DNA of 42,011 bases. It comes from Thermomonas sp. Lineage in GTDB: Bacteria; Pseudomonadota; Gammaproteobacteria; Xanthomonadales; Xanthomonadaceae. A program made the translations under genes and the position numbers. This document shows, piece by piece, positions 7,946 through 41,638 of this stretch. The DNA is taken from positions 1 to 42,011 of the forward strand of contig NZ_JAHRWW010000037.1 in assembly GCF_019104945.1 (NCBI RefSeq). The letters are read 5' to 3'. The notes under the pieces were generated by a model. That model was not told the DNA's origin. It did no database searches and was given only the letters and a program-made list of their open reading frames with translations. Each line of letters starts with the position of its first letter. Position 1 is the stretch's first letter.

Positions 7946-8537
7946 TCCTAACTCCCGCGCTGGGGCGTAGATAGCCAAACAAATTGAAGCTCACATCCAG
8001 CCCGCCTTCTTGTACTTGCTGCGCGCCGGGGATAGCGAAGTAGCGCTGCGCAGTGATGCCCAGCGCATCCACAAAGAGGAACGGTTGTGCCGACTCCAAC
8101 GCATGCAGGACGGCCACCGTTTCGGCATTGCCGCAGCGCAGACGCACTTGCACGATGACTTTTTGATAGCGCCCGGCTTGGCTTTCATTCTCCAAAGGCG
8201 TGCGGTTGACGATGGCGCAGCCGCGCCCACCGCTCTCGGTCACAATGCCTTCCAGCTGTTGGATCAGCGCCGCCGTGGCTAGTTCAGCAGTAGGTTCGGC
8301 CAAGAAGCTCGCACTACTGCCGCGCGTCTGCAGAGCCTGCACGCGTTGTTGCACCTGCGCTTGCTGCAGCAGCAATCCGCGCAGCCTTGCGTCACGTTGC
8401 TGCAGATCGGTAATTTTTGCATTCACTGTGTGCAGCGGCGCAATGAACAGCGGCTGCAGCAATAACCCATAGACCGCAGCCAGCACCGCAAGCAGCAGCG
8501 CCAGCGCCAGCCAGCGGTCGCGATTAGTGCGTGGCAT
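7935..8537 (-). CDS. gspM: Type II secretion inner-membrane protein GspM (XpsM)
   Basis: A 200-residue protein with a short basic cytoplasmic tail (MPRTNRDR), one membrane helix (about 9-30) and a periplasmic ferredoxin-like domain preceded by a Gln-rich coiled coil (TDLQQRDARLRGLLLQQAQVQQRV). This is the GspM layout; GspM binds GspL and stabilises it in the inner-membrane platform. The gene overlaps gspL at its start (8524-8537) and gspN at its end, consistent with translational coupling. GspM sequences diverge fast, so the call rests on position, topology and length. Confidence 0.88.
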   Translation of the reverse strand: MPRTNRDRWLALALLLAVLAAVYGLLLQPLFIAPLHTVNAKITDLQQRDARLRGLLLQQAQVQQRVQALQTRGSSASFLAEPTAELATAALIQQLEGIVTESGGRGCAIVNRTPLENESQAGRYQKVIVQVRLRCGNAETVAVLHALESAQPFLFVDALGITAQRYFAIPGAQQVQEGGLDVSFNLFGYLRPSAGVRNGQ

Positions 8538-9624
8538 GGGCGGCCTCCTCTGGTGCAGCGGTTGTGGCCACTTTGAGCTTGGCCACTAGGGTAAACCGAT
8601 CCATTCTGGTTCTCGGTTCCTGCTGCAGCGGCCCACTCAGCGCAGGCGAGCTCCACTGCGGCGCGCCCTCAAGCTGGCCCACGAGCGCCGCCGCCTGATT
8701 GGATAGCCCAATCAAGGTTAACTGGTCACCGTCGATGGACAGTTTTTCCAGATAGGTACCATCCGGCATGCGCTGCGCCAATGCGTCGATCACTTCCACC
8801 GCTGAGGCGCGGCCATTGCGCTGTTGGGCCAAGTGCGCGCCTCCTTCAACCGCATCCATGATCTGCTGGCGCTGCGCGCTTACACTGCGCGCCTGCGGCT
8901 CACGCTGGCTGATTGTTTTTTGCAGTTCGGCCGCTGCCGCCGCGCGGTTATCCAATAGCTGAGATAGCGCTGCACAGAGAGCGAATACGGCAAGCAGCAG
9001 CAAGCCAAGATTCCATAGCCGCCATGGATTTTTTCGCCGCGCACGCTGCGCCTGCGGTAAAAGGTTGACGCCTAGCGGCCTGCCGCTTTCTGCGGCTAGG
9101 TCCAACCCAGCCAAGGCTAAATCAACACCCGGCCAGCGCGCGGTGGCCGCCGCCAACTGTGCGCGCGGCAATACCACCAGCTCCGCCTGCAATTGACCGT
9201 CCGCACGCGGGTGCAGTACGCGGCCATCGTAGAGGACATCTGCAAGTGCAAACGGCGTTTGCCGCTCTACTTCAAATGTCAGTACATCACGCAGACGCTC
9301 GCGGGCAGCGGCAGGCAGGGTGAGTTCTCGGCGCAGCCCGAGTGATGCAGGCAGCGCCAGCCAGCGTGGCAGGTTCGCGACGCGGCCAGATAGCAGGACG
9401 GCAAGAGGATCACCGCCTTGCGGCAGCGGCAGCGGTAATTCACCTAATGGGTGTAAGCGCTCTTCACGCTGTAGCACGAGTTGCAGAGTCTCGTTTGGGT
9501 GCAGCAGCACGCGGTCTTGGCTCACACCCAGCGTGCGGCGTAGCGAAACCGGCAGCCACTCCAGCAAGCTTCGGCCCCACCATGCAAAAAAACGACGCAG
9601 GTAGGTTGTTGGCATCGTGCTCAC
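8524..9624 (-). CDS. gspL: Type II secretion protein GspL (XpsL)
   Basis: The 366-residue GspL links the cytoplasmic ATPase GspE to the membrane platform. It has an actin-like cytoplasmic region with the family segment TFEVERQTPFALADVLYD (116-133), a membrane helix at about 203-223 after a basic stretch (RARRKNPWR), and a periplasmic PilN/fimbrial-assembly-like domain (DALAQRMPDGTYLEKLSIDG). The start is GTG overlapping the gspK stop (GTGA at 9621-9624). Length and domain order are normal. Confidence 0.92.
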   Translation of the reverse strand: MSTMPTTYLRRFFAWWGRSLLEWLPVSLRRTLGVSQDRVLLHPNETLQLVLQREERLHPLGELPLPLPQGGDPLAVLLSGRVANLPRWLALPASLGLRRELTLPAAARERLRDVLTFEVERQTPFALADVLYDGRVLHPRADGQLQAELVVLPRAQLAAATARWPGVDLALAGLDLAAESGRPLGVNLLPQAQRARRKNPWRLWNLGLLLLAVFALCAALSQLLDNRAAAAAELQKTISQREPQARSVSAQRQQIMDAVEGGAHLAQQRNGRASAVEVIDALAQRMPDGTYLEKLSIDGDQLTLIGLSNQAAALVGQLEGAPQWSSPALSGPLQQEPRTRMDRFTLVAKLKVATTAAPEEAAHATH

Positions 9625-25936: not shown

Positions 25937-28762
25937 ATGACTTCCCTCGACTCCGGCTTCAACCCGTCCTCCTTCGAATCCCGCCTGTACGCGCAGTGGG
26001 AGGCCAGCGGCGCGTTCGCCCCGACCGGCAACGGCCCGGCCTACAACATCCTGCTGCCGCCGCCGAACGTCACCGGCACCTTGCACATGGGCCACGCCTT
26101 CCAGCACACGCTGATGGATGCGCTGGTGCGCTACCACCGCATGCGCGGCTACCGCACCCTGTGGCAGATGGGCACCGACCACGCCGGCATCGCGACGGAA
26201 ATGGTGGTGTCGCGCAACCTCGCCATCGAGGGCAAGGGCGAGACCCGCGATTCCTTGGGCCGCGAGAAATTCATCGAGAAAGTGTGGGAATGGAAGCAGC
26301 ATTCCGGCAGCACCATCGAGCGCCAGATGCGCCGCCTCGGCGCGTCCGGAGACTGGTCGCGCAGCGTATTCACCATGGATCCGATGCCCTCGACCGCGGT
26401 GATCGAAGCCTTCGTGCGCCTGCACGAGCAAGGCCTGATCTACCGCGGCCAGCGTCTGGTCAACTGGGACCCGGTGCTGAAGACCGCGATCTCCGATCTG
26501 GAAGTGGTGAGCGAGGAAGAGAACGGCCACCTGTGGGAGATCCGCTACCCGCTGGCCGATGGCGTGACGTATGAGCACGTCGAGCACGATGCCGACGGCG
26601 TGGAAACCCTGCGCGAAACCCGCGGCTACGTGGTCGTGGCCACCACCCGCCCGGAAACCATGCTGGGCGATACCGCCGCGATGGTGCACCCGGAAGACCC
26701 GCGCTACACCGCGCTTCACGGCAAGTTCGTCGAGCTGCCGCTGACCGGCCGCCGCATCCCGATCATCCTGGACGACTACGTCGATCGCGGCTTCGGCACC
26801 GGCGTGGTGAAGGTGACGCCTGCACACGATTTCAACGACTACGCGGTGGGCCAGCGCCACGGGCTTGCGCTGATCAATATCTTCAGCGACACCGCCAAGG
26901 TGCTTGGCGATGACTTCATCCCCGCGCCGTATCGCGGCCTCGACCGCTTCGATGCACGCAAGGCCATCGTCGCCGACCTCGACGCCGCCGGCCTGCTGGT
27001 CGAGATCAAGCCGCACAAGCTGCAGGTGCCGCGCGGCGACCGCAGCGGCCAGGTGATCGAGCCGTACCTGACCGACCAGTGGTTCGTGAAAATGGACACG
27101 CTGGGCCAGCGCGGGCTGGAATTGGTCGAGAACGGTAGCGTCAAGTTCGTGCCGCCGAACTGGGTCAACACCTACCGCCACTGGATGGAGAACTTGCAGG
27201 ATTGGTGCATCAGCCGCCAGCTGTGGTGGGGCCACCGCATTCCGGCGTGGTTCGATGCCGCAGGCAAGGTCTACGTTGGCCGCAACGAAGCCGAAGTGCG
27301 CGCCAAACATGCGCTGGGCGATGCGGTGCTGACGCAGGATTCCGACGTGCTGGAGACCTGGTTCTCCTCGGCGATGTTCCCGTTCTCAACGCAGGGCTGG
27401 CCGGATGCCGTCGCGATGGCCAAGCGCGGCTTCGACGACTACATCCCGTCCAGCGTGCTCGTCACCGGCTTCGACATCATCTTCTTCTGGGTGGCGCGGA
27501 TGGTGATGATGACCGACCACTTCACCGGCAAGGTGCCGTTCCACGACGTCTACATGACCGGCCTAGTGCGCGACAAGAACGGCCAGAAGATGTCCAAATC
27601 CAAGGGCAATGTGCTCGACCCGCTGGACATCATCGACGGCATTTCCATCGACGACCTGGTCGCCAAGCGCACATTCGGGCTGATGCAGCCGAAGATGGCC
27701 GAGAAGATCGAGAAAGACACCCGCAAGGACTACCCGAACGGCATCAATGCCCACGGCGCCGACGCGCTGCGCTTCACCATGGCCGCACTCGCAGGCCCCG
27801 GCCGCGACATCAAGTTCGACCTGGCCCGCGCCGAGGGCTACAAGAATTTCTGCAACAAGCTGTGGAATGCAACGCGCTTTGCGCTGATGAACGTGGGCGA
27901 AGCCAGCTTCAGCGGCGTGCCGCAGCCTGCCACCGACGCCGAGCGCTGGATCCTGTCCCAGCTCGACCGGATCAGCCTTGAGGCCGCCGAGCACTTCGCC
28001 AGCTACCGCTTCGACCTGCTCGCGCAGTGCCTGCACGAATTCGTCTGGAACCAATTCTGCGACTGGTTCGTGGAGCTGGCCAAGCCGGCCCTGCAGGGCG
28101 ACGACGCAGCCGCGTCCGCATCCACCCGCCACACCCTGCTGCACGTGCTGGAAGCGCTGCTGCGCCTGCTGCACCCGCTGATCCCGTTCGTCACCGAGGC
28201 GCTGTGGCAGGAAGTCGCGCCGCGGCTGGGCAAGTCCGGCAGCCTGATGCTGCAGGCCTATCCGCAGCGCGGTGATCTGGATGTCAATGCATTCGCGCAG
28301 GCCGACGCCGATATCGAATGGCTGAAGGCGGTGATCGGCTCGGTGCGCCGCATCCGCAGCGAGCTGGGCGTGTCGCCGGCCAAACAGATATCTCTGCTGC
28401 TGCGCGGCGGCGACGCTTCGGATGCCGCGCGCGCGCAGCGCTTCGACGCGCAGCTGCGTTTCCTGTGCAAGCTCGAACGCATCGACACCATCAGCGGTGA
28501 GCCGCCTGCCGCCGCCCCGGCCGTGGTTGGCGAGCTGCAACTGTTCGTGCCGCTGGAAGGCTTGGTGGATCTGGACGCCGAACGCGTGCGGCTGGACAAG
28601 GAGATCGCCAAGATCGCCGCCGAGAAAGACAAGAGTGAGGCCAAGCTGGCCAAGTTCGGCGCTGGCGTGCCCGAAGCCGTAGTGGCTCAAGAACGCGCGC
28701 GTCTGGCCGATTGGAGTACAAAACTTGCCGCACTCTCTATCCAACGCACGCGCCTAGGCTAA
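25937..28762 (+). CDS. valS: Valyl-tRNA synthetase
   Basis: The 941-residue class I synthetase charges tRNA-Val. The HIGH motif appears as His50-Met-Gly-His53 in [13 protein letters not shown], and KMSKS is at 551-555 in [16 protein letters not shown]. The CP1 editing domain (about 190-330) contains the [12 protein letters not shown] threonine-rich site. A C-terminal coiled coil ([30 protein letters not shown]) is typical of ValRS. ATG 25937 is preferred; a GTG at 25925 overlapping the holC stop is in frame. Length is normal. Confidence 0.98.
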
Positions 28763-28794
28763 ACTCACACTCGGAGAAAAGGGGTCTCCAGCGA

Positions 28795-30078
28795 ATGAGC
28801 ACAGCGGAAAGTAATTCCAATGGAACGATCGCCTATCGGCAGCTGCTCGATACCGTTGGCTCATTCGTGTACACCACAGACCTACAAGGCCGCTACACCT
28901 ACGCCAACCAACTGGTGCTCAACCTACTGGGCAACGGCCTCACGTTGGATGATGTCCTTGGCAAGATGTTTACCGACTTCGTTGATATTGGCGAAGACGA
29001 CACCCTGCGCGAAACCGACTGGCGCGTAATTCGCAACGGTGAAACCATCGCGCGCGAAGAAGACAATTACATCCACGCCACCGGCGAAACCCATACGTAC
29101 TGGTCGATCAAAAAACCACTACGCAATGAGAGCGGCGCTATTGTCGGCTTGATCGGCATCTCCCACGACATCACCGAGAAAAAGCGCCTCGAAAACAAAG
29201 TGCGCCAACAAAACGAACTGCTCGATGCCGTGCTCAATAACATCGAAGCGGTGGTGTACATGAAAGATGCCAACCGGCGCTTCATTTATGCCAACAAACA
29301 CATGGCGAACCTGTTCGGCAAATCTGTGGATGAAATTGTTGGCCGCCTTGATAGTGAGCTCATGCCCCAAGACGTGGCTGATGCGTTCTGGGAAAAAGAC
29401 ATCCAAATTTTTGCCACCGGCCAGCGCTATGCCGGTGAAGAAAGCCTTGTGGATGCAGAAGGCCGCATGCACCACTACTGGTCAATCGTTGTGCCTTGGT
29501 CTGGGTTTAACGGCATCCACGCCAATGTGGGTCTTATCACCGACATCACCGAACTGCATGCACTGAAAGAAAAGCTGCAGCACCAAGCGCTTACTGATAG
29601 CCTCACCGGCATTGCCAACCGCCGCAGTTTTTTTGAACACGCAGAACAAGAGTTCGCGCGCAGCCGCCGCCACGGCCATGCCCTTGCCCTTGTTGCGCTA
29701 GATATAGACCATTTCAAACAGATCAACGACCGCTACGGCCACCCAGTTGGCGATAGCGTATTGCAGCACTTTGCTGCCTGCTGCCAAAAGCAGCTGCGCG
29801 AAGGTGATTTTTTTGCCCGTACTGGTGGCGAAGAGTTTTGCATCTTGCTTCCAGAAACCAATATCCACGCCGCGCTAGAAATTGCCGAACGCATGCGTGA
29901 AGTCACCAGCTGCCATTGTCTTGAAACAATGCAACCTTCACTGCACATCAGTGCCAGCTTCGGCGTTACTTGCTTAAATGAAATGGATACAGGTTTTGAC
30001 ACCCTGTTCTCGCGCGCCGACCGTGCCCTGTATGCCGCAAAAGAAAAAGGCCGGGATCAGACTGTGACGCTTACCTGA
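28795..30078 (+). CDS. PAS-PAS-GGDEF diguanylate cyclase
   Basis: A 427-residue soluble signalling protein that would make cyclic di-GMP. Two PAS domains are visible (about 15-128 and 143-255), each with the start LLDTVGSFVYTTDLQGRYTYAN or LLDAVLNNIEAVVYMKDANRRFIYAN. The GGDEF domain (about 262-427) has the active-site GGEEF (344-348), so catalytic residues are intact. An inhibitory I-site RxxD (Arg335-Glu-Gly-Asp338) sits five residues before it, which suggests product feedback. There is no membrane segment or signal peptide, so the stimulus is cytoplasmic. The start at 28795 has a GGAG/GGGG-rich leader; upstream in-frame codons overlap valS. Confidence 0.93.
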   Translation: MSTAESNSNGTIAYRQLLDTVGSFVYTTDLQGRYTYANQLVLNLLGNGLTLDDVLGKMFTDFVDIGEDDTLRETDWRVIRNGETIAREEDNYIHATGETHTYWSIKKPLRNESGAIVGLIGISHDITEKKRLENKVRQQNELLDAVLNNIEAVVYMKDANRRFIYANKHMANLFGKSVDEIVGRLDSELMPQDVADAFWEKDIQIFATGQRYAGEESLVDAEGRMHHYWSIVVPWSGFNGIHANVGLITDITELHALKEKLQHQALTDSLTGIANRRSFFEHAEQEFARSRRHGHALALVALDIDHFKQINDRYGHPVGDSVLQHFAACCQKQLREGDFFARTGGEEFCILLPETNIHAALEIAERMREVTSCHCLETMQPSLHISASFGVTCLNEMDTGFDTLFSRADRALYAAKEKGRDQTVTLT

Positions 30079-30086
30079 CGGCGCGC

Positions 30087-30407
30087 CTACTGAACTACCA
30101 CATAGCCTGCTTCGATATTGCGATGAAAGGGCGCAGGTAGATGCGCCCAAAGATGCACATCAACGAGGATCGGCAAGCTGCTCTCTGTTAACGCTTCTTG
30201 CAACTCCATCCAACCCGCTACATCTGTAGCTAGATTGGCTTCATTGCGTAGCACTAAATCCAAATCACTCCCCTCATGGGCACCACCAGTAACGCGGCTG
30301 CCATAGGCCCAAGCCGTAGCATGGGGAACATGCTTAGCTAGCAACACTTGCAGAGTGCGCAGATGACGCTCAGGCAATTGCAACTGCGCCAAGTCAAACT
30401 GAGGCAT
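30087..30407 (-). CDS. mntA: MNT-domain nucleotidyltransferase antitoxin (MntA type)
   Basis: A 106-residue minimal nucleotidyltransferase. It has the defining GSx10DxD motif: Gly36-Ser37, then ten residues, then Asp48-Leu-Asp50; a third acidic strand is ILVDVHLW. In the HepT/MntA system of Shewanella the MntA protein is known to AMPylate a tyrosine in the HEPN toxin and thereby silence it. The gene overlaps the HEPN gene by 14 bases, the toxin being first. The start at 30407 was chosen because it gives the normal length; an open extension runs antiparallel to no domain and lies inside hepT. The gene converges on the diguanylate cyclase. Confidence 0.9.
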   Translation of the reverse strand: MPQFDLAQLQLPERHLRTLQVLLAKHVPHATAWAYGSRVTGGAHEGSDLDLVLRNEANLATDVAGWMELQEALTESSLPILVDVHLWAHLPAPFHRNIEAGYVVVQ

Positions 30408-30825
30408 CAAACACCGCCTGAATTCGTGGAGCCAGCTGCCGCACATCTTCAAGATACTGCGGCAACAGACGCAGCGTTTCATTGGCAAAGCCCTTGCCAT
30501 AGTCGTGCGCTGTGTTATTGCGGTTCGCACGATAAACCAACCAGCGCTCTACCTCATCCGTGTCTAGCAAGCCATGCTTCCCGGCATGGCGCAAAACATC
30601 GTTAAATACAAGCTTGTCAACTTCACGGGGGCTACCTCCGTAGGCCTTCAAAGCCTTGCGCATCAGCTTCCCAGCCGTTTCTAAAGACAATTCAAAACTT
30701 TTGATCGCCGCATTTCGATAAAGATCAAATGTAACATCGTCTTGATCCGCCACCTTTTGGATTGCAAGCAACGCCTGTTCAAGCGTGGAAGCCGTACGCA
30801 ACAAATGCTCTATATTTAATGACAC
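30394..30825 (-). CDS. hepT: HEPN-domain RNase toxin (HepT type)
   Basis: A 143-residue all-helical HEPN protein with the catalytic Rx4HxY motif Arg102-NNTA-His107-Asp-Tyr109. Arg and His are the RNase residues and Tyr is the residue AMPylated by MntA in the characterised Shewanella system. The N-terminal helices (SLETAGKLMRKALKAYGGSPREVDKLV) fit the nucleotidyltransferase-substrate-binding HEPN subgroup. It is expected to be a translation-blocking RNase when unmodified. The toxin precedes the antitoxin and both overlap. The likely role is phage defence or plasmid-type maintenance; the pair sits at the left border of the polysaccharide cluster. Confidence 0.9.
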   Translation of the reverse strand: MSLNIEHLLRTASTLEQALLAIQKVADQDDVTFDLYRNAAIKSFELSLETAGKLMRKALKAYGGSPREVDKLVFNDVLRHAGKHGLLDTDEVERWLVYRANRNNTAHDYGKGFANETLRLLPQYLEDVRQLAPRIQAVFDASV

Positions 30826-30850: not shown

Positions 30851-31861
30851 TCAAACGCCATAGTACTCACGGTACCACCGCACAAAATTCGCCACACCCT
30901 CTTCAACCGAAACTTTTGGGCGGTAGCCGACGTTAGTAATTAAATCCGAAACATCCGCCTCGGTGTCTGGCACGTCGCCCGCTTGCAAAGGCAGCATCTC
31001 CATTTTGGCCTTCTTGCCTAAGCACTCTTCCAACACCTCGATGTAGCGAAGCAAATCCACCATATCTTCATTACCAATATTGTAAAGACGATACGGCGCA
31101 ACGCCGCTGGTGGCAGGGTCTGGATGGTGCGCATCCCACTGCTGATCTTTGCTAGGTACCTGATCCAGAGCCCGAACAACACCTTCCACGATGTCATCAA
31201 TATAGGTAAAGCTACGCTTATGCTTTCCGTGGTTGAACACCTTAATTGGCTCATCGGCCAAAATAGCTTTCGTAAAAAGAAACAGCGCCATATCCGGCCT
31301 GCCCCACGGGCCATACACGGTAAAAAAGCGCAGCCCCGTACACGGCAAACCATATAAATGCGCATAACTATGCGCCATCATTTCGTTGGCTTTCTTCGTT
31401 GCTGCATAAAGCGTCAGCGGATGTTCAGTTGAGCGATGCTCAGAAAAAGGCATGTCACGGTTAGCCCCATACACCGAGCTTGTGGAGGCATATACCAAGT
31501 GCTCCACACCATGATGGCGGCAGCCTTCCAGAATATGCAAAAAGCCCGTGACATTGCTTTGAACATACACATGCGGGTTTTCTGCCGCGTAGCGCACGCC
31601 CGCCTGCGCGGCCAAATTGATCACCCGATTCGGCTTATGCACCGCAAAAGCCTGCTCCACCGCCGCGCGGTCGGCCAGATCCGCAGCCACATGGGTATAG
31701 CCCGGCTTATCCAACAAACGCGCCAAACGCGCCTGCTTGAGACTAACGTCGTAGTAATCGTTGAGGTTGTCGATGCCAACCACCTCATCACCGCGCGCCA
31801 GCAGCACTTGCGCTACGTGGGAACCGATAAAACCGGCGGTGCCGGTGATTAAAATTTTCAT
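30851..31861 (-). CDS. UDP-glucuronate 4-epimerase (NAD-dependent SDR)
   Basis: A 336-residue extended SDR. It has the NAD-binding GTAGFIGSH (7-15), catalytic STSSVYG (126-132), Tyr152-xxx-Lys156 (YAATKKANE) and the substrate segments [17 protein letters not shown] and [13 protein letters not shown]. Together these are characteristic of the LspL/Cap1J/WbnF group that interconverts UDP-GlcA and UDP-GalA. That would supply galacturonic acid to the polysaccharide; a UDP-glucose dehydrogenase is not in the window. ATG 31861 is the family start. The 145 bp upstream (31862-32006) is AT-rich and probably carries its own promoter, but no clear boxes were found. Confidence 0.9.
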
Positions 31862-32006
31862 TGAAATCCAAATAAAGACCGGTGAAACCACAAATTCAAT
31901 CGTAATGAACGACAAAGTTACAACCGTGGATAGCCAGATCGAAAACAGTTCAATTCACCTATCTTTGCGAACCCATATACCGTTTTCAATCTCGCTCCAC
32001 TACACC

Positions 32007-32999
32007 TCATTCAGAGTAAAACAGTGGCCCACCCTGTGCCTTACCGAGAAATTCGGATTCCAGCGTACGCGCTAGGCCTTCTTGCAAGCTGTAGGGCGGC
32101 TGAAAGCCGAACGTGCGCGCCGCACTGGCAAATTGGGTTGTGGCGCAAAATTTGCGCACACGGATGCGGCTGACCGGGAAAGTACGCCCTGTGGCCCACG
32201 CCACCGCATCCAGCGCGCCGCCAACCGCGTAGCCGACGGCATAAGGCAACCGCGGCATCCATCCGCGCTTTCGTCCCAACGTATCGCGGGCCAATTCGAC
32301 AAGCTGGTTCATTTCCATATCGGGCTTGTCCACATAATTGGCGACGTGGACCCCTGCGGACATGCCCAACATGTGCGACAGGAACGCCACAACGTTGCCG
32401 ACATAGGCCATCGATTTGTAATTGCGGCCAGCACCGATCATCACGAACATGCCCGAAGCAATCTGCTTGAGCAGGTTATACACATTGCCTCGGTTGCGCT
32501 CGCCGAAGACGACCGTGGGTCGCACGACGACGAGCGAGCGTGTTTCGGCATCGGCCTGCTGCCATGTGCGATAAACAATCTCGGCTTCCGCCTTGGTGCG
32601 CCCGTAATCGTTGAACGGCGCAATCGCGCCATCTTCGCCGGTATCGGGTGGTGCGAAACCGTACACTGCCACCGTACTGGTGAACACGATGCGCGAGATG
32701 CCAACGGTCTCCGCCGCCTTGCAGACGTTCCTTGCACCGTCCACATTCACTGCGTCGTACAAGCTCAGCGGACGGACATCATCGCGGTGCTCGGCGGCGA
32801 GATTGATGACAGCACCGCATCCTTCCAATGCGGAATGCAAGCTATCCAGCTTGGTGACATCGGCAATGATCGTTCTGTCCGGGAACGTCTCAGACATCCG
32901 CTTGTCGATGATGCGGAATGCAATACCGGCCTCCTGCAAGACTTGGCACAGACGCGTTCCGATGAAGCCAGAGCCACCAATAACAGCAATGCACGTCAT
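32007..32999 (-). CDS. NAD-dependent epimerase/dehydratase family protein, possibly a nucleotide-sugar 4-reductase
   Basis: A 330-residue extended SDR with GGSGFIGTR (8-16), the catalytic TSTVAVYG (107-114) and Tyr132-xxx-Lys136 (YGRTKAEAE). The pattern (VVRPTVVFGERNRGNVYNLLKQI, then GAGRNYKSMAYVGNVVAF) resembles the WbpV/WreQ group that reduces a UDP-4-keto-6-deoxy-GlcNAc, giving QuiNAc- or FucNAc-type sugars. A simple epimerase is also possible. It overlaps the upstream GT4 gene by four bases. No 4,6-dehydratase partner is in the window, so the proposed product is an inference. Confidence 0.75.
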   Translation of the reverse strand: MTCIAVIGGSGFIGTRLCQVLQEAGIAFRIIDKRMSETFPDRTIIADVTKLDSLHSALEGCGAVINLAAEHRDDVRPLSLYDAVNVDGARNVCKAAETVGISRIVFTSTVAVYGFAPPDTGEDGAIAPFNDYGRTKAEAEIVYRTWQQADAETRSLVVVRPTVVFGERNRGNVYNLLKQIASGMFVMIGAGRNYKSMAYVGNVVAFLSHMLGMSAGVHVANYVDKPDMEMNQLVELARDTLGRKRGWMPRLPYAVGYAVGGALDAVAWATGRTFPVSRIRVRKFCATTQFASAARTFGFQPPYSLQEGLARTLESEFLGKAQGGPLFYSE

Positions 33000-34099
33000 T
33001 TCCGCCTCCTGTTACGCGCCAAGCACGTCTCATAAACGTTCAATGTTTTTTCGATCATCGTACTTGCCCTGAAATCCTTTTCGTATCTCTCCCTCCCCTT
33101 CGCTCCCATGCTGGAAAGAAGTGCTGGGTTTCCCAGTAAGCGCTTCAACGCCTCCGCCAACGCCGCGGTATCCCCTTGACCAACCAAAATACCGGTCTCC
33201 TCATTCACCAGCTCGGATACACCACCCACATTGGATGCGACCACGGGCAGGCCTGCACGCATGGCCTCGAGAATGCTGATAGGCAGCCCTTCGAAGTGAG
33301 AAGCCAAAACGAATACATCGGAGTGCGCAAGCAGAGTCGTCACGTCCGTACGAGACCCCATGAACTCCACTTGGTTTTCGATCGCGAGGTCAAACACCAG
33401 TGCCTTCGCCTCAGACAACAACGGCCCATCGCCCACGAGACGAAGCCGACACGGCACATCGCCCATCATGGCAATTGCCCGAAGCAAGGTGGCATGATCC
33501 TTCTGGGCAGCGAACCGGGCCACCATGGTGATCACGGGTTCCGGATTGGAAGTCAGAAGTGCGCGCTCAGGCGTGTCTCCAATGCCGTTCCAAACAACAT
33601 GCAGCCGCGTATCCGACGTGATCGCATAGCGACGCGCCAGTTGGCGGTCGTATTGGGAGACACAGATGATGTCTCCACCCGTCCGCGCCGCCAACCATTC
33701 GCTTGGCACAGTCATCAACTTACGGGTCATAGTTGCGCCGCTAGTAAAAGCCCAGCCATGCGCAGTAAAAACCGACGGAACAGCAATTATTCTTGCAGCA
33801 ATACGCCCCAGCAACCCGGCTTTAGAAGAGTGCACATGCAATAGGCTAGGTTGTTCTCGCAAAAGCCATTGCTTGATTTGGCGACAGGCCCGCGAATCTT
33901 GAGCTAGGCGTATCGGATGCACCAAATCCGGAATAATGGTGACGGAAACACCCCGAGCACGAACCTGATCTGCTAGCCATCCTTCGTCGCCAACGGCAAA
34001 AACAACCTCATGACAGCCTTTAATGCCATCGATTAACTCAAGAACATGAGATTGCGCACCACCCGCTTCTGCTTTTGTAATTAATAAAGCAACCTTCAT
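32996..34099 (-). CDS. Family 4 glycosyltransferase
   Basis: A 367-residue GT-B fold retaining glycosyltransferase. The N-terminal domain starts with LLITKAEAGGAQSHVLELI, a Gly-rich loop typical of GT4. The C-terminal domain has MVARFAAQKDHATLLRAI, LVGDGPL and the EX7E motif in EGLPISILEAM. The protein ends in a basic tail (LARNRRRK). It probably adds a sugar to the lipid-linked repeat unit on the cytoplasmic face. The ATG/stop overlap with the SDR gene at 32996-32999 indicates co-expression. Its GC content is nearer to the chromosomal genes than to the AT-rich block on its right. Confidence 0.88.
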   Translation of the reverse strand: MKVALLITKAEAGGAQSHVLELIDGIKGCHEVVFAVGDEGWLADQVRARGVSVTIIPDLVHPIRLAQDSRACRQIKQWLLREQPSLLHVHSSKAGLLGRIAARIIAVPSVFTAHGWAFTSGATMTRKLMTVPSEWLAARTGGDIICVSQYDRQLARRYAITSDTRLHVVWNGIGDTPERALLTSNPEPVITMVARFAAQKDHATLLRAIAMMGDVPCRLRLVGDGPLLSEAKALVFDLAIENQVEFMGSRTDVTTLLAHSDVFVLASHFEGLPISILEAMRAGLPVVASNVGGVSELVNEETGILVGQGDTAALAEALKRLLGNPALLSSMGAKGRERYEKDFRASTMIEKTLNVYETCLARNRRRK

Positions 34100-34318: not shown

Positions 34319-35374
34319 TTATCTATACAGCTTTTTATAATTATGATACATAGCTTCAAGCGAATAACATGTTAACACGCGTTCACGATTTTTATGACCA
34401 ATTTGCATCCGTTCTGAAGCGCTTAATCGCAACACTTCTTCTATTTTATTAGCAAGCAATTCCGGTGAATTGATAGGCACTAAGAAACGGCCGTCACCAA
34501 CCACTTCACGAACTCCGCCACAATCAGTTGCGACAACTGGCAATTCACACGCCATGGCTTCGGCAACCACAAGACCAAATCCTTCCCACGCAGAACTTAA
34601 GACAAATAGATCGGCCAAGTTTAATAATTCAGGGACATTGCGCTGAATACCAAGCCAAGTCACGTTAGCATCCAAGGAAAGTTGTCTAGACAGTATAGAC
34701 AATTCGCTACGCAACTTGCCATCACCAACAATTTTTAGATGAAATGCAACATTTCTTTGCTTCAATATTGCAGCAGCTTTTAATAAATTCGGGTAGTCCT
34801 TTTGCACTTCCAATCGACCAACTGCAATCAACACAGGTACTTTGTTATTCTTTTTCCTCATGCAGCGAAAACGCGATGTATCTATACCATTGAGCACCGG
34901 AATAATAGTACCAGCTGCCGCAGCACCAGAAGTTTCAAGTATAGCAGCGGCTTCTGCGCTCACGTTTGTGAAATAATCACCCAAATACGCTGTATAACGA
35001 TATAGCAGCATGCGCAGCCAGCCCCCTTCACTACTATTATGGGCCGAGCAAATCAGACGAGGAATCTTCACCCAAAAGCGAGAAAAACGCGCCATGATGT
35101 TAGCGTGAAACATATGTGCATGAACCACATCAGGCTTAAAATTTTTAATCACACTTCGAAGTCGAATTAAAGCGGTAAAAAAAGATCTTGCACCCGTCAT
35201 GCCAATAGGAATGATCTCGACATTCTTATTCTGAGGATGCACAAGCATCCCGCCCGTTAAATAGGCAACTTTAACCACATTACCTTCGGATGCAGCTTTA
35301 TCAGCAAGAGCAACGACAACGTGCTCTGCGCCCCCCATACCCAGCCCAGTAATAATATAGAGGATACTTTTCAT
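34319..35374 (-). CDS. Family 4 glycosyltransferase
   Basis: A 351-residue GT-B fold enzyme. N-terminal ITGLGMGGAEHVVVALADKA and DVVHAHMFHANIMARF are classic GT4 segments. The C-terminal domain shows VGRLEVQKDYPNLLKA, KIVGDGKLRSEL and the EX7E motif EGFGLVVAEAM, then ATDCGGVREVV. It starts with an ATGA overlap on the wzy stop (35371-35374). The gene is AT-rich like the others up to 41490. The donor sugar cannot be told from sequence. Confidence 0.88.
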   Translation of the reverse strand: MKSILYIITGLGMGGAEHVVVALADKAASEGNVVKVAYLTGGMLVHPQNKNVEIIPIGMTGARSFFTALIRLRSVIKNFKPDVVHAHMFHANIMARFSRFWVKIPRLICSAHNSSEGGWLRMLLYRYTAYLGDYFTNVSAEAAAILETSGAAAAGTIIPVLNGIDTSRFRCMRKKNNKVPVLIAVGRLEVQKDYPNLLKAAAILKQRNVAFHLKIVGDGKLRSELSILSRQLSLDANVTWLGIQRNVPELLNLADLFVLSSAWEGFGLVVAEAMACELPVVATDCGGVREVVGDGRFLVPINSPELLANKIEEVLRLSASERMQIGHKNRERVLTCYSLEAMYHNYKKLYR

Positions 35375-36477
35375 CGAATTCTCGATTCTTTTTGATTAAT
35401 CTTTGAGCTTGCCATAGCCATACCCAACAACATTGCAAAAAAGTATGCCGAAAAAAAGGACGGGATAAACTGAAACCCCAATAGACATAAATAAATGCTC
35501 TGTGAAATATCCCCATCTGAACTTCTTGCCAAGTACAAAGCAACTACCAAAAAAGCCATGAAAAACGAAAAATATACCACCCCCCCCATTATCAGTGGAT
35601 ATAGAAATAAATTATGAGGGATAATAGCAATATTTTGACCATAATAGAGTTTATCTAAAAATGCACCAAACCAAAAATTATCCCGAAAAAAATCTAATCC
35701 AACTAAAAATCCATCAAGTCTACCTGACGAAGCAATCGTTAGCTCACGACCGGTAAAAAATGGAAGACCCACGAATAACACGAATAAAACAACTGGAGAG
35801 ACTATAACAATAGCAAAATAATGGGCTCTCATCTTGCCCGTTTTTAGCATCTTTAATGAAAGAAGAATAAATTTAAGTATAGTAAAGACTAAAATCGCAA
35901 CAATACCGGTTCTAGCTGATGTTACTATCGTCGCTGTAATGAGCAAAAAACTGATAGCTATTGCTAACTTTCGACCATACATACTCAATACAATTGGTAT
36001 GCAACTCACAACCACCAATGAAGCAAAACTAAAATCCTCCCAGATAAAACTATAAGCATGCCTCCCCCCTCCGAATAAAATATTCCTGAAGATGGAGATA
36101 CCGAAAAATATTTCTAGGAACCACTGCACATACACGCCAACCGCAATAAAAACACACGCCACTACATACAAATTTTTATTATATTCAACCCTCTTAACCC
36201 CTCCCATATATGTAATCAAATACGAACAATACAAGATAAAATAAAAAGAAATTAAGGACAACAATGATTCATAAGCCCCAGTAATCAGGGCATAAATAGC
36301 AGTAATCAATAGAACGAAAGAAAAACAATAAATGGAACCATCGCGTAATACTATTTTACGTTCAAAAATTATCTTTAAAACTAAAATAAATCCGACAACT
36401 AACTGTACAACTATAAATCTAACGTCATATAGTGTTATATAAGAAAACGGCATCAGTAAAAAAAAAAGACTAGTCAT
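35371..36477 (-). CDS. wzy: Wzy-type polysaccharide polymerase
   Basis: A 368-residue polytopic protein with about ten to eleven hydrophobic helices and a large periplasmic loop (about 235-300; SGRLDGFLVGLDFFRDN... and IPHNLFLYPLIMGG). This is the signature layout of O-antigen ligase/polymerase proteins, with HN in the loop as in many Wzy. Sequence similarity among Wzy is low, so the call is from topology and position next to wzx and glycosyltransferases. It would polymerise lipid-linked repeat units in the periplasm. It overlaps both neighbours (8 bases with the GT2, 4 with the GT4). It could alternatively be a ligase (WaaL). Confidence 0.8.
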   Translation of the reverse strand: MTSLFFLLMPFSYITLYDVRFIVVQLVVGFILVLKIIFERKIVLRDGSIYCFSFVLLITAIYALITGAYESLLSLISFYFILYCSYLITYMGGVKRVEYNKNLYVVACVFIAVGVYVQWFLEIFFGISIFRNILFGGGRHAYSFIWEDFSFASLVVVSCIPIVLSMYGRKLAIAISFLLITATIVTSARTGIVAILVFTILKFILLSLKMLKTGKMRAHYFAIVIVSPVVLFVLFVGLPFFTGRELTIASSGRLDGFLVGLDFFRDNFWFGAFLDKLYYGQNIAIIPHNLFLYPLIMGGVVYFSFFMAFLVVALYLARSSDGDISQSIYLCLLGFQFIPSFFSAYFFAMLLGMAMASSKINQKESRIR

Positions 36478-37477
36478 TAGCTTTCAAGAATACCGTGCCA
36501 TGAGAAAGTTTTTTTATTGCCAACCGAACAAAATTTCCTAACAATTCATTCCGCTCGACCAAAGAAATCGAAAACCTCAATAAGCAAGCCAATGGCCAAC
36601 CAACTGAAAGCCCAATAAATATTTCTGCTTTCTTATATTCTTTCAAAAAAATAAACTTAATTATCGTTTTGTAAAAAGCCACTTTATCCTTAAGGCCAAA
36701 TGAGTAAAGTAGTAAAGCCAAGCCACCAAATTCCTCAATGGGGTCAATATTAAACGATAGATTATGCTTATAACATCTATTCGCCAACGTAACAAACATA
36801 GCCTGTTCAAGACTTCTTTCAGGAGTAGTCGCTACACCATCCGGAAAGACATTCGTTTGATACAAAACTTTATCCAGATTGTAGCATTTACCTATTCGGC
36901 TAATTCGCAGAAAAAGGTCATAATCTTGTGCATATTTAAAAATCGATCTATAACCACCAATTTTCAGGTACTCTTCCTTCTTGAACATCACTGACCCGTG
37001 CACAAAAGGATGCCTTTTTCTCTCTGGATCCATCTCTATCTCTCCGCAAATAGGCTGGACCTCCTTCAGATGCACATCTGGCTCGCCAACTTTCTTTACG
37101 ACATTAGTTGATAGACATCCAACAAAGCAGTACCTCTCATTATCATTAAGAAATTGGTATTGCACAGCAATACGGTTTGCATATGAGACATCCCCTGCCC
37201 CTTGGATCGCCACATAGGGAGCTTTTGCTTTTTCTGCCAGCATTTTTATGGTTTTGGTAAACCCTTCATTTTCTTTATGAATAACCGTCAACCTTGGGTC
37301 ATCGTAACCATCTAAAATAACTTTTACATTAGGGTCAGTACTGCCATCATTAGCAATAATTATCTCATAATCGTCAAAGTCTTGACTCAGCAGACCATCA
37401 ACCGTGTCCTTTATATAGTCCGCACGATTATACCAAGCGCAGATAATTGAAACTTTTGGCGCACTTATTTCATTCAT
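36470..37477 (-). CDS. Family 2 glycosyltransferase
   Basis: A 335-residue GT-A enzyme with N-terminal VSIICAWYNRADYIKDTVDGLL, the nucleotide-binding ANDGSTD, and QGAGDVSYANR, which stands where DxD usually lies (GD in GAGDV). FVHGSVMFKKEEYLKIGGYRS and YAQDYDLFLRIS are typical acceptor-side segments; Asp-Tyr-Asp provides the catalytic base region. A C-terminal hydrophobic stretch (IFIGLSVGWPLACLLRF) may be membrane-associated. It starts one base after the murB stop and overlaps wzy by eight. It is a candidate for transferring the sugar made by the adjacent MurA/MurB enzymes. Confidence 0.88.
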   Translation of the reverse strand: MNEISAPKVSIICAWYNRADYIKDTVDGLLSQDFDDYEIIIANDGSTDPNVKVILDGYDDPRLTVIHKENEGFTKTIKMLAEKAKAPYVAIQGAGDVSYANRIAVQYQFLNDNERYCFVGCLSTNVVKKVGEPDVHLKEVQPICGEIEMDPERKRHPFVHGSVMFKKEEYLKIGGYRSIFKYAQDYDLFLRISRIGKCYNLDKVLYQTNVFPDGVATTPERSLEQAMFVTLANRCYKHNLSFNIDPIEEFGGLALLLYSFGLKDKVAFYKTIIKFIFLKEYKKAEIFIGLSVGWPLACLLRFSISLVERNELLGNFVRLAIKKLSHGTVFLKAND

Positions 37478-37478
37478 T

Positions 37479-38432
37479 TTAAATCTCTTGAATATTTCCG
37501 AACCTATCTATATATTTTGGCTCTACCTTCATTATGCAACCTGTTTTCTTATAAACCTCATTTCGTACTACATGAATCAAATACAATATATCCGAAGCTG
37601 TTGCAGTCCCAGTATTAACAATGAAATTGGCGTGATCTTTGGAGATTTGCGCCCCTCCTTTGATAACTCCTTTCAAACCACATTCCTCGATTACTTTACC
37701 TGGCGCCCCAGATTGCTTATAAATCGCAGGATTACTCACAAATACTGAGCCGCAATTTGGTATTTTGCGTGGAAACTTGGCGCTGCGAGATCGCAATATG
37801 GCAAGCATTTCATTATGCATTATTTTTTTGTTAGCCACTGACTCTAATTGCAACTTGACTTCAACAATAACCTCATCCAATTTCTGAAAAATAGAGCTTC
37901 TATAATCAAAGCGGCATTCTTCCCTGCTATAAATTTTTGTATTCCCGTTTGCGTCAATCGTTTTTACATAAACAATGCTGTCTCCAATACCCTTACGCTG
38001 ACTGCCTCCATTCATAACAACTAGGCCTCCCAACGTACCGGGGATTCCGCAGGTATGTTCTATTCCCGTTAACCCGGCCTGTAAAGCAAGGCGAGCTAGC
38101 TTTGGAACCCACACCCCAGCTTTTGCCAAAATAGTACTTCCGCTGAGTTTCACCTGCGAAAACCCGCTTCCAATTTGCATAAAGATTGCATCTATATTGC
38201 AGTCAGCAAACAACAAATTTGTTGTATTCCCTATTATTAGACTAGGAAGCTGATGTTTGGAAATATATTTTCTAAGCGCAATGACTTCCTCTTCCGTTTG
38301 CGGTTTAACTAAGATTTTCGCTCTTCCGCCAACTCGCCAACTACTGACTGCCGTTAACGGCACGTTGCTTTGAACTGGCACACCACAAATTGATAATAGA
38401 TCTACTGCAACATTAGGGTTAATTATTATCAT
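37479..38432 (-). CDS. murB: UDP-N-acetylenolpyruvoylglucosamine reductase paralogue in the polysaccharide operon
   Basis: MurB reduces UDP-GlcNAc-enolpyruvate to UDP-MurNAc with NADPH and FAD. The 317-residue chain keeps the expected active-site elements: Arg178 in DYRSSIF, Ser229 in NCGSVF (proton donor to the substrate) and Glu304 in KVEPKY. The FAD-binding segment is unusual, IIGNTTNLLFAD where GGGSNLL is typical; the following IEHTCGIPGTLGGLVVMNGG is well conserved. It overlaps murA by ATGA and runs into the GT2 with one base between. The gene is AT-rich and sits inside a surface polysaccharide cluster, away from the usual mur-fts cluster. It looks active, but the true substrate could differ. 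Confidence 0.88.
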   Translation of the reverse strand: MIIINPNVAVDLLSICGVPVQSNVPLTAVSSWRVGGRAKILVKPQTEEEVIALRKYISKHQLPSLIIGNTTNLLFADCNIDAIFMQIGSGFSQVKLSGSTILAKAGVWVPKLARLALQAGLTGIEHTCGIPGTLGGLVVMNGGSQRKGIGDSIVYVKTIDANGNTKIYSREECRFDYRSSIFQKLDEVIVEVKLQLESVANKKIMHNEMLAILRSRSAKFPRKIPNCGSVFVSNPAIYKQSGAPGKVIEECGLKGVIKGGAQISKDHANFIVNTGTATASDILYLIHVVRNEVYKKTGCIMKVEPKYIDRFGNIQEI

Positions 38433-39703
38433 GGCTCTTTAATTTCACCGGAACAAGCAGCACCCAAAGATTTTAATTTTGGAATTAAATCTACATAACC
38501 ACGACCAATTTGCCATGCATCATAAATGATGGTTTCACCTTCTGCCGACAAACCACATAGCGTTAAAGCTATGCCTGCACGAAGGTCAAGCGCTTTCACC
38601 TTCGCGCCATTCAACTTACCACCTTTACCGTCTATTTTGAGCATGTCTCCATTGATCTGATAATTCAATCCCATTTTCTTCATTTCCTCTGCGTAGCCAT
38701 AACGGCCAGGAAAGCGTAAGTCTACGATACGTGATTCACCTCGCGCTTGCGCGGCCCATGCAGCTAGAATGGGTTGTACGTCGGAGTTAATGCCAGGATG
38801 CGGGCCTGTACTAATTTCGAGAGGGTAGCAGGTGCCGCCACGTACTAATAAAGAATTGTCGCCTCGATAAAACTTTGCCCCAGAGGATTTAAGATTCGCC
38901 ATCACTACTTGTAAATCATCATAGGGGAAATCAACAATTTCTATATCCCCCTTTGTGATAACTGCAGCAGCGAGCCATGTAATTGCTTCCATATTATCGG
39001 GCATGACACTATGCTTAACACCAGAGAGATGGTCCACGCCTTGCACTTCTATGCGCTCTTGGCCAAATACTTTGATATTTGCCCCCATCGCATTCAGCAT
39101 ATTGATAAGGTCAAAAATCTCAGGGCGCACGTGCGGCCCCCATATGTTTGTTGTGCCTTGTGCCAAACTTGAGGCCAGCACCGCATTTTCGGTGGCCCCT
39201 GTTGAACGTATCGGCAAATAGATATCGGCGCCTTGTAACCTTTTATTTGATGTCTCCGCACATAGGTAATCCCCCTCCTCCCATATATGTGCACCCAACT
39301 TTTCAAGCAGCATAACGTGTATTTCGTACTTTCGCTCACCTAGCTTACAACCACCTGGCAACGGCACCTTTGCTTCACCGAAGCGGGCAACCATGGCACC
39401 GAGCATTAGCAGAGTGTTACGAATAGAACGCCCATCCCATATAAGCCGAGTGCCCAATTTATTATTTTCTTTAATAATGATCTCTTTGTTACTAACCAGA
39501 TCGCAGCTCTTACCCAGCGCTTCAAGCATGCCAACATGTACTTTGGCATCTAGCAGGCTGGAGGGGTAATTCGCAAGCGTAACGGTTTCTTCTGTCAGCA
39601 AACTAGCTGTTAACAGCTTCAAGGCAGAATTTTTTGCGCCGTTAAGTGTGATTACACCTTCTAAACGGCTTTTCGAGATTTTTAAAAGTGATTGTTTAGT
39701 CAT
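38429..39703 (-). CDS. murA: UDP-N-acetylglucosamine 1-carboxyvinyltransferase paralogue in the polysaccharide operon
   Basis: MurA transfers enolpyruvate from PEP to UDP-GlcNAc. The 424-residue chain keeps all key residues: Lys24-Asn25 (NGAKNSALKLL), catalytic Cys119 and Arg124 in GGCKLGERK, Asp308 in HPGINSDVQP and Arg375 in DLRAGIAL. Because the Cys is present, fosfomycin sensitivity is expected. The loop around Cys and the FPTDxQ-type segment differ from the housekeeping form (GINSDVQ), which marks a divergent paralogue. It overlaps the acyltransferase by eight bases and murB by four. With MurB it would supply UDP-MurNAc. The housekeeping copy should be elsewhere in the genome. Confidence 0.9.
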   Translation of the reverse strand: MTKQSLLKISKSRLEGVITLNGAKNSALKLLTASLLTEETVTLANYPSSLLDAKVHVGMLEALGKSCDLVSNKEIIIKENNKLGTRLIWDGRSIRNTLLMLGAMVARFGEAKVPLPGGCKLGERKYEIHVMLLEKLGAHIWEEGDYLCAETSNKRLQGADIYLPIRSTGATENAVLASSLAQGTTNIWGPHVRPEIFDLINMLNAMGANIKVFGQERIEVQGVDHLSGVKHSVMPDNMEAITWLAAAVITKGDIEIVDFPYDDLQVVMANLKSSGAKFYRGDNSLLVRGGTCYPLEISTGPHPGINSDVQPILAAWAAQARGESRIVDLRFPGRYGYAEEMKKMGLNYQINGDMLKIDGKGGKLNGAKVKALDLRAGIALTLCGLSAEGETIIYDAWQIGRGYVDLIPKLKSLGAACSGEIKEP

Positions 39704-40190
39704 CGTTCTTACTTTTCAAAATAATACGGGCTGGCACTCCTACCGCCACAGCACCATCTGGGACATCTTTTGTTACAACTGCATTAGCGCCGACAATACA
39801 ATTCGCCCCTACTTTTATCTTCCCTATAATTACAGCACCCGCAAAAATTATCGTATTATCACCAACTTCAGGATAATTATTTACCTTGGCATCACCCAAC
39901 CGCCCTCCACCCAAGGTAACATTTTGATATATGATGACGGCCTTACCAATTTTCACCCCTTCACCGATCACAACTCCAACAGGATGACTTAATGAAAGTG
40001 ATGCATCAAAACTTGCTTTCGGAGATATAAATATACCTTGTTTTTTTTGCAATCTATTGGCAAAATAATTGGATAAAAATAAAACACTGTTCTGCTTAAA
40101 TAACAGTATAAGTCTAATATATAACTTGGTACGATAGTTTGCGCCGCCGCATACGTACATAAACGGAAATTTAATTATTTTTTTCAACAT
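39696..40190 (-). CDS. CysE-like hexapeptide acyltransferase
   Basis: A 164-residue left-handed beta-helix protein of the serine acetyltransferase-like family. The helical region has VGVVIGEGVKIGKAVIIYQNVTLGG, followed by AGAVIIGKIKVGANCIVGANAVV and the closing VPDGAVAVGVPARII. The His in SLSHPVGVVIG is the likely catalytic base. The N-terminal 40 residues are hydrophobic and basic, unlike the long helical domain of true CysE. Such genes in polysaccharide clusters usually acetylate a sugar or amino sugar using acetyl-CoA. It overlaps wzx by 20 bases and murA by 8. The acceptor is unknown. Confidence 0.85.
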   Translation of the reverse strand: MLKKIIKFPFMYVCGGANYRTKLYIRLILLFKQNSVLFLSNYFANRLQKKQGIFISPKASFDASLSLSHPVGVVIGEGVKIGKAVIIYQNVTLGGGRLGDAKVNNYPEVGDNTIIFAGAVIIGKIKVGANCIVGANAVVTKDVPDGAVAVGVPARIILKSKNDD

Positions 40191-41490
40191 TTCCTATATG
40201 CCCCATTTCATAAAATATAAGCCAACTCATAATTAGATAAAACAAGAACAAATATAAACTTAAAACAAATACAAACTGACTACTATTCGGCAAAACGTAT
40301 AGAGTACAGCCCCATATAATGCACAACCCAATTATTCTAACCACGTTGATTGCCAGAAATAAAAACTGCGACCCAACAATGTTTAGAACTTGTACGAGCG
40401 GATTAGAAGTAAATTGCAATAGCATAAATGGTGATAACATGGCGGCATATTTTCCAGCCAAAGACCACTTTACTCCAAAAAAAAGTACAAACAGAGGTTG
40501 CGCAAAAAAAATAGCACCTATTGTTATTGGTACACCAATTACAAATAATTTCTTTTGTACTGAATAAGTAATGCGCCTTATCTTAGGCAAATCACTTTTC
40601 CCGATAGCAGCTATCTCCGCATAATAGGCCTTACTCATGGCACTGCCAACCAAACTAACGGGAAAACTTAATGCCATAAACGCCAAGCTCAATTGCCCCG
40701 TTGCCCCCTTATCATACAGTGTCGCCATCATCAATATGGGTGCCTGCATAGATAACACCATCAAAAATTGGGAAGGCAGGCGATACTTAGGGAAGTCCCG
40801 ATAGAAACTAGCTATTATTTTTTGCCTATTTTTACTTACTAATGGACATAATTTTTTAAAATCTTTTCGTGCGTTTTTTAAATAACTACCAGTGCCAGCA
40901 CTTTGCGAGAAAACTTGCCCAAACACCAGACCAAGTGGTCTTATGCTTAACAAGCCTAAACTTATTTTCACTAATTCACCAAGTAGCGACTGACTAAGCT
41001 GTGTTTTGGCAATTACTCTGTAATCTTTTTTTCGAGTTGCCCAAGCACTAAATAATTCATAAGTAGCAGCCCCCATTGTACCAATGGCTATTAGCCACCA
41101 ATAGGGGGCCAGATTTCCCATTGAAAACCAACCTAAAACTATATGCCCAAATAGACCCAATATTAGTGCTATTAACAGGCCACCTAGTGCTATTAGCTTG
41201 GCACATATTATGAACAAATTAAATGCCATGACATCAGTTTTTGGCAATGGAATAGCGGTGACATAGCGAAGCGTCAGAATGGGCACCAGTAATGTGACAA
41301 TAGAAGTATATACTGCTAACACGCCATAATCATCAGGCGAGTACATGCGAGTTAATATTGGAATGCTGGCAATGCCCACAATGCGTGCCCCCCCCGCACC
41401 CATTACAAGCGTAAGCATGCCGCGAAAAACGTCACCGGCTTCGCCTTTAAATTGACGGATAAATAAGTTTTGCAGACGTTTAATAATCAC
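40171..41490 (-). CDS. wzx: Wzx-type flippase (polysaccharide biosynthesis protein)
   Basis: About 439 residues and roughly twelve hydrophobic helices. It has the MOP/Wzx N-terminus (GDVFRGMLTLVMGAGGARIVGIASIPILTRMYSPDDYGVLAVY), which is the strongest evidence. It flips the lipid-linked repeat unit across the inner membrane. The gene is AT-rich. The start is uncertain: a TTG at 41520 gives ten more residues, but that part overlaps the transposase remnant, so GTG 41490 (VIIKRLQNLF) is preferred; neither has a good ribosome binding site. It may have lost its original upstream region to the insertion event. Confidence 0.88.
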   Translation of the reverse strand: MIIKRLQNLFIRQFKGEAGDVFRGMLTLVMGAGGARIVGIASIPILTRMYSPDDYGVLAVYTSIVTLLVPILTLRYVTAIPLPKTDVMAFNLFIICAKLIALGGLLIALILGLFGHIVLGWFSMGNLAPYWWLIAIGTMGAATYELFSAWATRKKDYRVIAKTQLSQSLLGELVKISLGLLSIRPLGLVFGQVFSQSAGTGSYLKNARKDFKKLCPLVSKNRQKIIASFYRDFPKYRLPSQFLMVLSMQAPILMMATLYDKGATGQLSLAFMALSFPVSLVGSAMSKAYYAEIAAIGKSDLPKIRRITYSVQKKLFVIGVPITIGAIFFAQPLFVLFFGVKWSLAGKYAAMLSPFMLLQFTSNPLVQVLNIVGSQFLFLAINVVRIIGLCIIWGCTLYVLPNSSQFVFVLSLYLFLFYLIMSWLIFYEMGHIGNVEKNN

Positions 41491-41506
41491 AACTGATCTG
41501 CATTTA

Positions 41507-41638
41507 TTGCGCCTGACCAAGTTGGAGAGTATCCAACGACATATGTTCTACCTGCATCTTAAAGAACCCAAGTTTCGGTTTAACCATCACCGAGATAACC
41601 TCCACTAATAAGAGTTGCGAGTTCATGCGCTCTTGTAA
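41507..41638 (+). pseudogene. Remnant of an IS1595/IS1016-type transposase (C-terminal end)
   Basis: In the plus-strand frame this reads RLTKLESIQRHMFYLHLKE, then PKFRFNHHRDNLH, closely matching by memory the C-terminal pattern of IS1595/IS1016 transposases (FYLHLKECEFRFNHR, then DNLY). Two stop codons follow at 41606-41611, and the frame continues as ELRVHALL to a TAA at 41636-41638. No catalytic domain, terminal repeats or target duplication are seen. This is a decayed fragment whose 5' part is missing or replaced by wzx. The assignment is moderately certain. Confidence 0.55.

Follow-up and report, generated by a model that had tools for sequence, protein, structure and literature searches.

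A murA-murB pair in a surface-glycan operon of Thermomonas sp. as a likely dedicated, horizontally acquired pathway to a lactyl-ether sugar

Background

What use might a bacterium have for a second set of the enzymes MurA and MurB, encoded amid genes for a surface glycan? The question is raised by a stretch of 42,011 nt from Thermomonas sp. (contig NZ_JAHRWW010000037.1, assembly GCF_019104945.1), the whole of which is referred to here as the window. An earlier note on this DNA had claimed a complete murA-murB pair at 37479..39703 and had proposed that a surface glycan is made through a dedicated pathway. Having compared the pair with its counterparts in the same genome, in other bacteria and on plasmids, we consider it likely that the two genes were acquired horizontally and form a pathway dedicated to a surface glycan, with UDP-N-acetylmuramic acid (UDP-MurNAc) or a close lactyl-ether relative as its product.

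Results and discussion

The murA-murB pair and its operon

Both frames are open where the pair had been placed, on the minus strand: murA (38429..39703) encodes an enolpyruvyl transferase of 424 aa, and murB (37479..38432) a PRK13905-type protein of 317 aa. They are the third and fourth genes of an operon whose order is Wzx flippase, acyltransferase, MurA, MurB, family 2 glycosyltransferase (GT2), probable Wzy polymerase and family 4 glycosyltransferase (GT4). The close packing that had been described for the pair and its neighbours was recovered, with successive junctions of -20, -8 (acyltransferase/MurA), -4 (MurA/MurB), +1 (MurB/GT2), -8 and -4 nt, negative values being overlaps. The GC content of the seven genes is 34-46%, against 61% in the first 30 kb of the window.

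The window MurA scores above the PF00275 and PRK09369 subfamily cut-offs, has the MurA fold and the EPSP-synthase superfamily profile, and retains K22, N23, R91, C115, R120, D305, R331, D369, R371 and R397 (E. coli numbering), ten positions that we take to be the catalytic ones, although residues of the cleft are altered. The residues singled out previously (C119, D308 and R375 of MurA; R178, S229 and E304 of MurB, in the proteins' own numbering) are all present. MurB combines PF01565 (FAD domain) with PF02873 (MurB_C) and exceeds two equivalog cut-offs (PRK13905, 274.7 vs 259; TIGR00179, 200.2 vs 144.5). Its unusual FAD loop, GNTTNLL, begins at residue 68, as reported, and recurs among cluster relatives: the second glycine of GxGSN is a threonine in 11 of the 14 cluster MurBs that make up the proteobacterial-type clade, but in 0 of the 16 housekeeping MurBs compared, a set that leaves aside those of two Halomonas-type genomes. 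Being common in the former and absent from the latter, the GNTTN-type loop is a lineage trait and not damage.

Separate housekeeping copies

The genome (2.69 Mb, 95.5% complete) contains three genes of the EPSP-synthase family, namely an AroA-like gene (C50), a MurA (C55) and the window MurA. Against TIGR01072 the C55 MurA reaches 586 bits; its identity to the window MurA is 35% (BLAST), and its surroundings were read from sequence as kdsD/kdsC/lpt. A second MurB, on C12, has 371 aa, scores 415 bits to PRK00046 and is 26% identical to the window MurB; we take it to be the type I form. The search for separate housekeeping copies, suggested by the earlier note, thus found both, and the idea that the window genes are themselves the housekeeping murA and murB is excluded.

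A distinct clade of cluster enzymes

In the phylogenetic tree, which had likewise been suggested, the pair stands apart from the housekeeping copies, and the paralogues that group with it are for the most part located in glycan gene clusters. One clade, with an ultrafast bootstrap support of 100, unites the window MurA with 20 others, 56-68% identical to it and drawn from Proteobacteria and Bacteroidota; the MurA model comprises 17 of the 21 cluster sequences, without the Methyloprofundus fragment and three plasmid proteins. A pattern scan of genome contigs with the window MurA yielded 17 loci at 59-70% identity, a count that is a lower bound, in Marinobacter, Halomonas/Vreelandella, Thioalkalivibrio, Stutzerimonas, Ideonella, Methyloprofundus, Rhodospirillales, Mesorhizobium, Flammeovirga and several Flavobacteriia. 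All 17 of these genomes have a second MurA at 32-38% identity and 15 have two MurBs; MurB lies inside the locus in 15 of the 17. Clustering of the neighbouring proteins recovered the families of the window's epimerase and acyltransferase in 10/17 loci each, its Wzx type in 6/17 and its GT2 type in 5/17, several of the loci ending at contig ends.

Among the best 30 of 138 matching plasmid records, MurA was found at 68% identity in Qingshengfaniella, at 60% in five Rhizobium plasmids and at 56% in Agrobacterium MA01. The Qingshengfaniella plasmid carries a cassette of acyltransferase, MurA, MurB and GT2, in that order (51%, 68%, 48% and 44% identity), standing free between genes for proline and arabinonate catabolism; no annotated glycan-synthesis gene occurs within 20 kb of it, and CHAP-domain and amidoligase-family genes lie near the far edge of these 20-kb surroundings.

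The cluster MurBs fall into two groups: 14 of proteobacterial type, including that of Flammeovirga, form one clade (support 0.82), and five flavobacterial ones form their own (support 1.0). Since the two are not joined in the tree, MurB was probably recruited at least twice.

Several other observations were made in these surveys. Two Flavobacteriia have a cluster MurA and an acyltransferase with a single MurB in the genome; there the housekeeping MurB may serve both pathways, or the enolpyruvyl form may be used. Two Flavobacterium loci have a sulfotransferase-family gene between the acyltransferase and MurB (L034:11748-12611, assigned by Pfam, and L037:11683-12609, assigned by clustering). A MurA match occurs in 44 phage records, all below 60% identity (e.g. 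MT836799.1, MT835689.1); in the eight listed the matching stretches are 34-37% identical, and all eight are from unannotated gut phage records.

The GT2 as a probable partner of the pair

The GT2 gene at 36470..37477 had been suggested as the possible transferase for the sugar, and this is backed by independent gene linkage in carrier genomes and on plasmids. When the window genome is taken together with 17 carrier genomes and three carrier plasmids (21 in all), eight have a GT2 match at E<=1e-25, the window's included, and in each of the other seven the sole match lies downstream of MurB, with one intervening gene in G031. Among 368 other genomes of the class there are six matches at 30-33% identity (best E 1.8e-36, at 32%), in genomes without a cluster MurA; neither MurA nor MurB occurs in the stretches examined around them, the contig of G227 ending at its match. 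We therefore abandoned the GT2 as a marker of murA-murB at weak similarity.

With the GT2 alone as bait, 13 plasmid records were recovered at E<=1e-20, and the seven best all adjoin a murA. Six of these were known from the MurA search; the seventh, Haematobacter massiliensis pOT1-6, is absent from the 30 records listed there. For Qingshengfaniella, Haematobacter and R. gallicum IE4872 a murB was seen between or beside GT2 and murA; in the four others, all Rhizobium plasmids, murA is placed, by coordinates alone, about 1.0-1.1 kb from the GT2. Among the six weakest matches, the Chelatococcus and Sphingomonas plasmids have a MurA match far from the GT2. In Haematobacter (5342-9035) a murB-murA pair stands beside a divergently transcribed GT2, with an IS21 transposase nearby. 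Its MurA is 34% identical to the window's (BLAST), yet the tree places it with the clade (FastTree support 1.0), with which it has V327R, E329P, S93T and T304S in common; the clade's Arg188 (Thr instead), Thr163 and Pro185 are missing. This pair suggests a system wider than the 21-member clade. We regard the plasmid linkage found from the GT2 side, extending to the deep-branching Haematobacter, as the strongest evidence for a functional unit, and in our best reading MurA, MurB and GT2 represent a horizontally moving module.

Rarity and probable horizontal transfer

The window genome was the only one with a cluster MurA among 369 genomes of its class (E<=1e-110) and among 247 of its family (E<=1e-85). 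In samples centred on other carriers, a cluster MurA occurs in 1 of 390 genomes of the order of Vreelandella (Vreelandella itself; E<=1e-85), while the family of Kriegella yielded three in 199 genomes (E<=1e-110), each a carrier already known. Within the genus (25 genomes including the window's) no close MurB was found outside the window genome, the best outside match having E 2.4e-12 and one genome having none. Combined with the low GC, this rare and scattered occurrence points to horizontal transfer.

A proposed pathway

In the pathway that we propose, the cluster MurA would transfer enolpyruvate from phosphoenolpyruvate to a hydroxyl group on a UDP-amino sugar, the 3-OH of UDP-N-acetylglucosamine (UDP-GlcNAc) being the likeliest site, and the cluster MurB would reduce the product to the lactyl ether, presumably UDP-MurNAc. 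The GT2 would then place this residue on the undecaprenyl-linked repeat, O-acetylation of it or of a neighbouring residue may be the role of the acyltransferase, and Wzx and Wzy would see to the export and polymerisation of the repeat. With a pair of its own, the coat could be supplied without a call on the peptidoglycan pool. The recurrence of the same pair, sometimes with the GT2, in unrelated bacteria and on plasmids suggests a building block made separately for the coat. Housekeeping copies elsewhere, the tree and the GT2 linkage all support the dedicated pathway of the earlier note.

Alternative explanations

Several findings weigh against this proposal. The window MurA falls short of the score that TIGR01072 sets for a murA equivalog (367.7 vs 392.7), as do six of the seven cluster-type MurAs scanned. 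The window-type GT2 family is absent from 12 of the 17 relative loci, where other transferases must therefore serve. The acyltransferase family was not found in seven of them, of which two are cut at MurA and one has a different acyltransferase in its place, and Euzebyella and Pseudozobellia have a cluster MurA with a single MurB in the genome. Furthermore, E188, E329 and V163, invariant in housekeeping MurAs, are replaced in the clade, so that UDP-GlcNAc is not assured as the acceptor. This last point opens the way to an unlikely explanation, in which the cluster MurA acts on another UDP-sugar, for instance an acidic UDP-N-acetylhexosaminuronic acid (UDP-HexNAcA), giving a lactyl-ether uronic amino sugar or some other ether that is not MurNAc. 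Of 72 positions invariant in 19 housekeeping MurAs, the cluster clade keeps 43 in all members and changes 10 in all, the other 19 being mixed. E188R (21/21), V327R (21/21), E329P (20/21) and V161R (20/20) are near-universal in it, and E188 and E329 are present in 19/19 housekeeping MurAs; V327R and E329P recur in Haematobacter, where E188 is lost as well. Docking papers assign E188, V327, F328, E329 and T304 to the MurA active site or its rim. A supply of UDP-HexNAcA could come from two TviB-type UDP-HexNAc 6-dehydrogenases in the genome (C14 and C28, one above and one below the equivalog cut-off), but neither lies in the window. E188 and E329 are, however, only putative contact positions, and no annotated sugar-modifying gene lies near the Qingshengfaniella cassette. 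The two MurB lineages and the two genomes without an extra MurB also fit ordinary enolpyruvyl-UDP-GlcNAc. Moreover, MurAs of the housekeeping kind, all assumed to use UDP-GlcNAc, themselves differ between Bacteroidota and Proteobacteria at 136 of 417 columns, T304 and V327 included. This comparison, between 8 and 11 sequences, served as a control for the 59 of 407 columns that are disjoint between the 21 cluster and 19 housekeeping MurAs, smaller sets favouring a higher number. Following it, clade-diagnostic columns were dropped as proof of a new substrate, and weight was given only to the positions invariant in all 19 housekeeping MurAs, whose open reading frames were picked by BLAST. We regard as correspondingly doubtful a mobile MurA-MurB-GT2 module in which MurA has shifted in specificity from UDP-GlcNAc to another UDP-sugar, such as an acidic HexNAc, with V327R, E329P and loss of E188 as its marks; if true, it would define a new class of lactyl-ether sugars in bacterial coats. 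In an observation of its own, the C28 dehydrogenase gene adjoins a frame read as glmS.

As the enzyme types are those of peptidoglycan synthesis, the pair might be redundant enzymes, comparable to the second MurA (MurZ) of Gram-positive bacteria, that feed the ordinary UDP-MurNAc pool and owe their place in the cluster to chance. This is quite improbable, given the sporadic distribution and the recurring association of the pair with one set of GT2, acyltransferase and Wzx families in distant taxa and on plasmids. Low GC and absence from the sampled kin point to recent transfer, which would fit a non-functional remnant of a transferred cluster, but the operon frames are open and tightly coupled and the catalytic residues of MurA and MurB are intact, leaving this reading scarcely credible. 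Open frames and a conserved clade rule out an artefact.

Other genes of the locus

Like murA and murB, the remaining genes of the cluster are on the minus strand. The operon probably opens with the Wzx-type flippase (40171..41520) and so starts inside the window, since nothing but the tail of another frame was seen between this gene's 5' side and the end of the contig. The acyltransferase (39696..40190) is a hexapeptide protein of serine-acetyltransferase-like type, matching the EpsC and CysE models below both cut-offs. Of the Wzx and Wzy noted near the pair, the flippase holds, through PF13440, and the polymerase (35371..36477) is probable, with about 10 membrane helices by hydropathy and a fitting position; it has no Pfam or NCBIfam match. 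The operon closes with the GT4 (34319..35374; Pfam). After a gap of 219 nt come a second GT4 (32996..34099; GC 54%), which may or may not share the transcript, an NAD-dependent epimerase/reductase of the SDR type (32007..32999), overlapping it by 4 nt, and the nucleotide-sugar epimerase (30851..31915); the GC content of these three is 52-59%. Directly downstream of the glycan cluster, a nucleotidyltransferase (Polbeta) gene overlaps one for an NTase-substrate-binding protein (30087-30825), a layout that we take to be that of an MNT/HEPN toxin-antitoxin pair, and a PAS-PAS-GGDEF protein is encoded on the opposite strand at 28711-30078. At the contig end (41960-42011) a short tandem repeat encodes VTPE units and is perhaps the reason why the assembly stops.

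Significance and relationship to known systems

A dedicated, transferable gene set of this kind would be a possible source of the muramic acid that chemistry has revealed in a few capsules, cores and O-antigens, and could provide a sequence marker to predict such glycans. It would also serve as a warning that genes annotated murA or murB are not always peptidoglycan genes, and would raise the question of how a coat with a peptidoglycan-type sugar fares against lysozyme, phages and immune receptors.

N-acetylmuramic acid (MurNAc) in surface glycans is already known. Published work describes MurNAc in the core of Psychrobacter arcticus (PMC4515632), in the O-antigens of Yersinia ruckeri and Proteus penneri, as cited there, and, with amide-linked serine, in the capsule of Vibrio vulnificus ATCC 27562 (PMC7247339). 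The V. vulnificus capsule locus is described with wza-wzb-wzc, wecA, low GC and synteny with a Shewanella, and the accessible text of that report leaves MurA and MurB unmentioned. A search at the level of titles and abstract openings, with most subscription journals outside its range, returned no dedicated murA-murB in a surface-glycan cluster among the matches listed. If the window system places MurNAc or a related sugar in a capsule, core or O-antigen, as predicted, its product would resemble these glycans, which are known from chemistry; the window system is known from its genes.

With the peptidoglycan MurA and MurB the window enzymes share fold, catalytic residues and paired reactions; they differ in that the window MurA belongs to a separate clade, below the TIGR01072 cut-off and with changed cleft residues, and in that the genes lie in a surface-glycan operon with other copies elsewhere. 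A MurA-fold enzyme serving outside peptidoglycan has a parallel in NikO, the enolpyruvyl-UMP synthase of nikkomycin (structure 4fqd). Finally, the flippase, polymerase-like protein, several glycosyltransferases and acyltransferase liken the locus to the Wzx/Wzy-dependent clusters of O-antigens and capsules, from which it is set apart by a two-step sugar-ether pathway otherwise typical of peptidoglycan.
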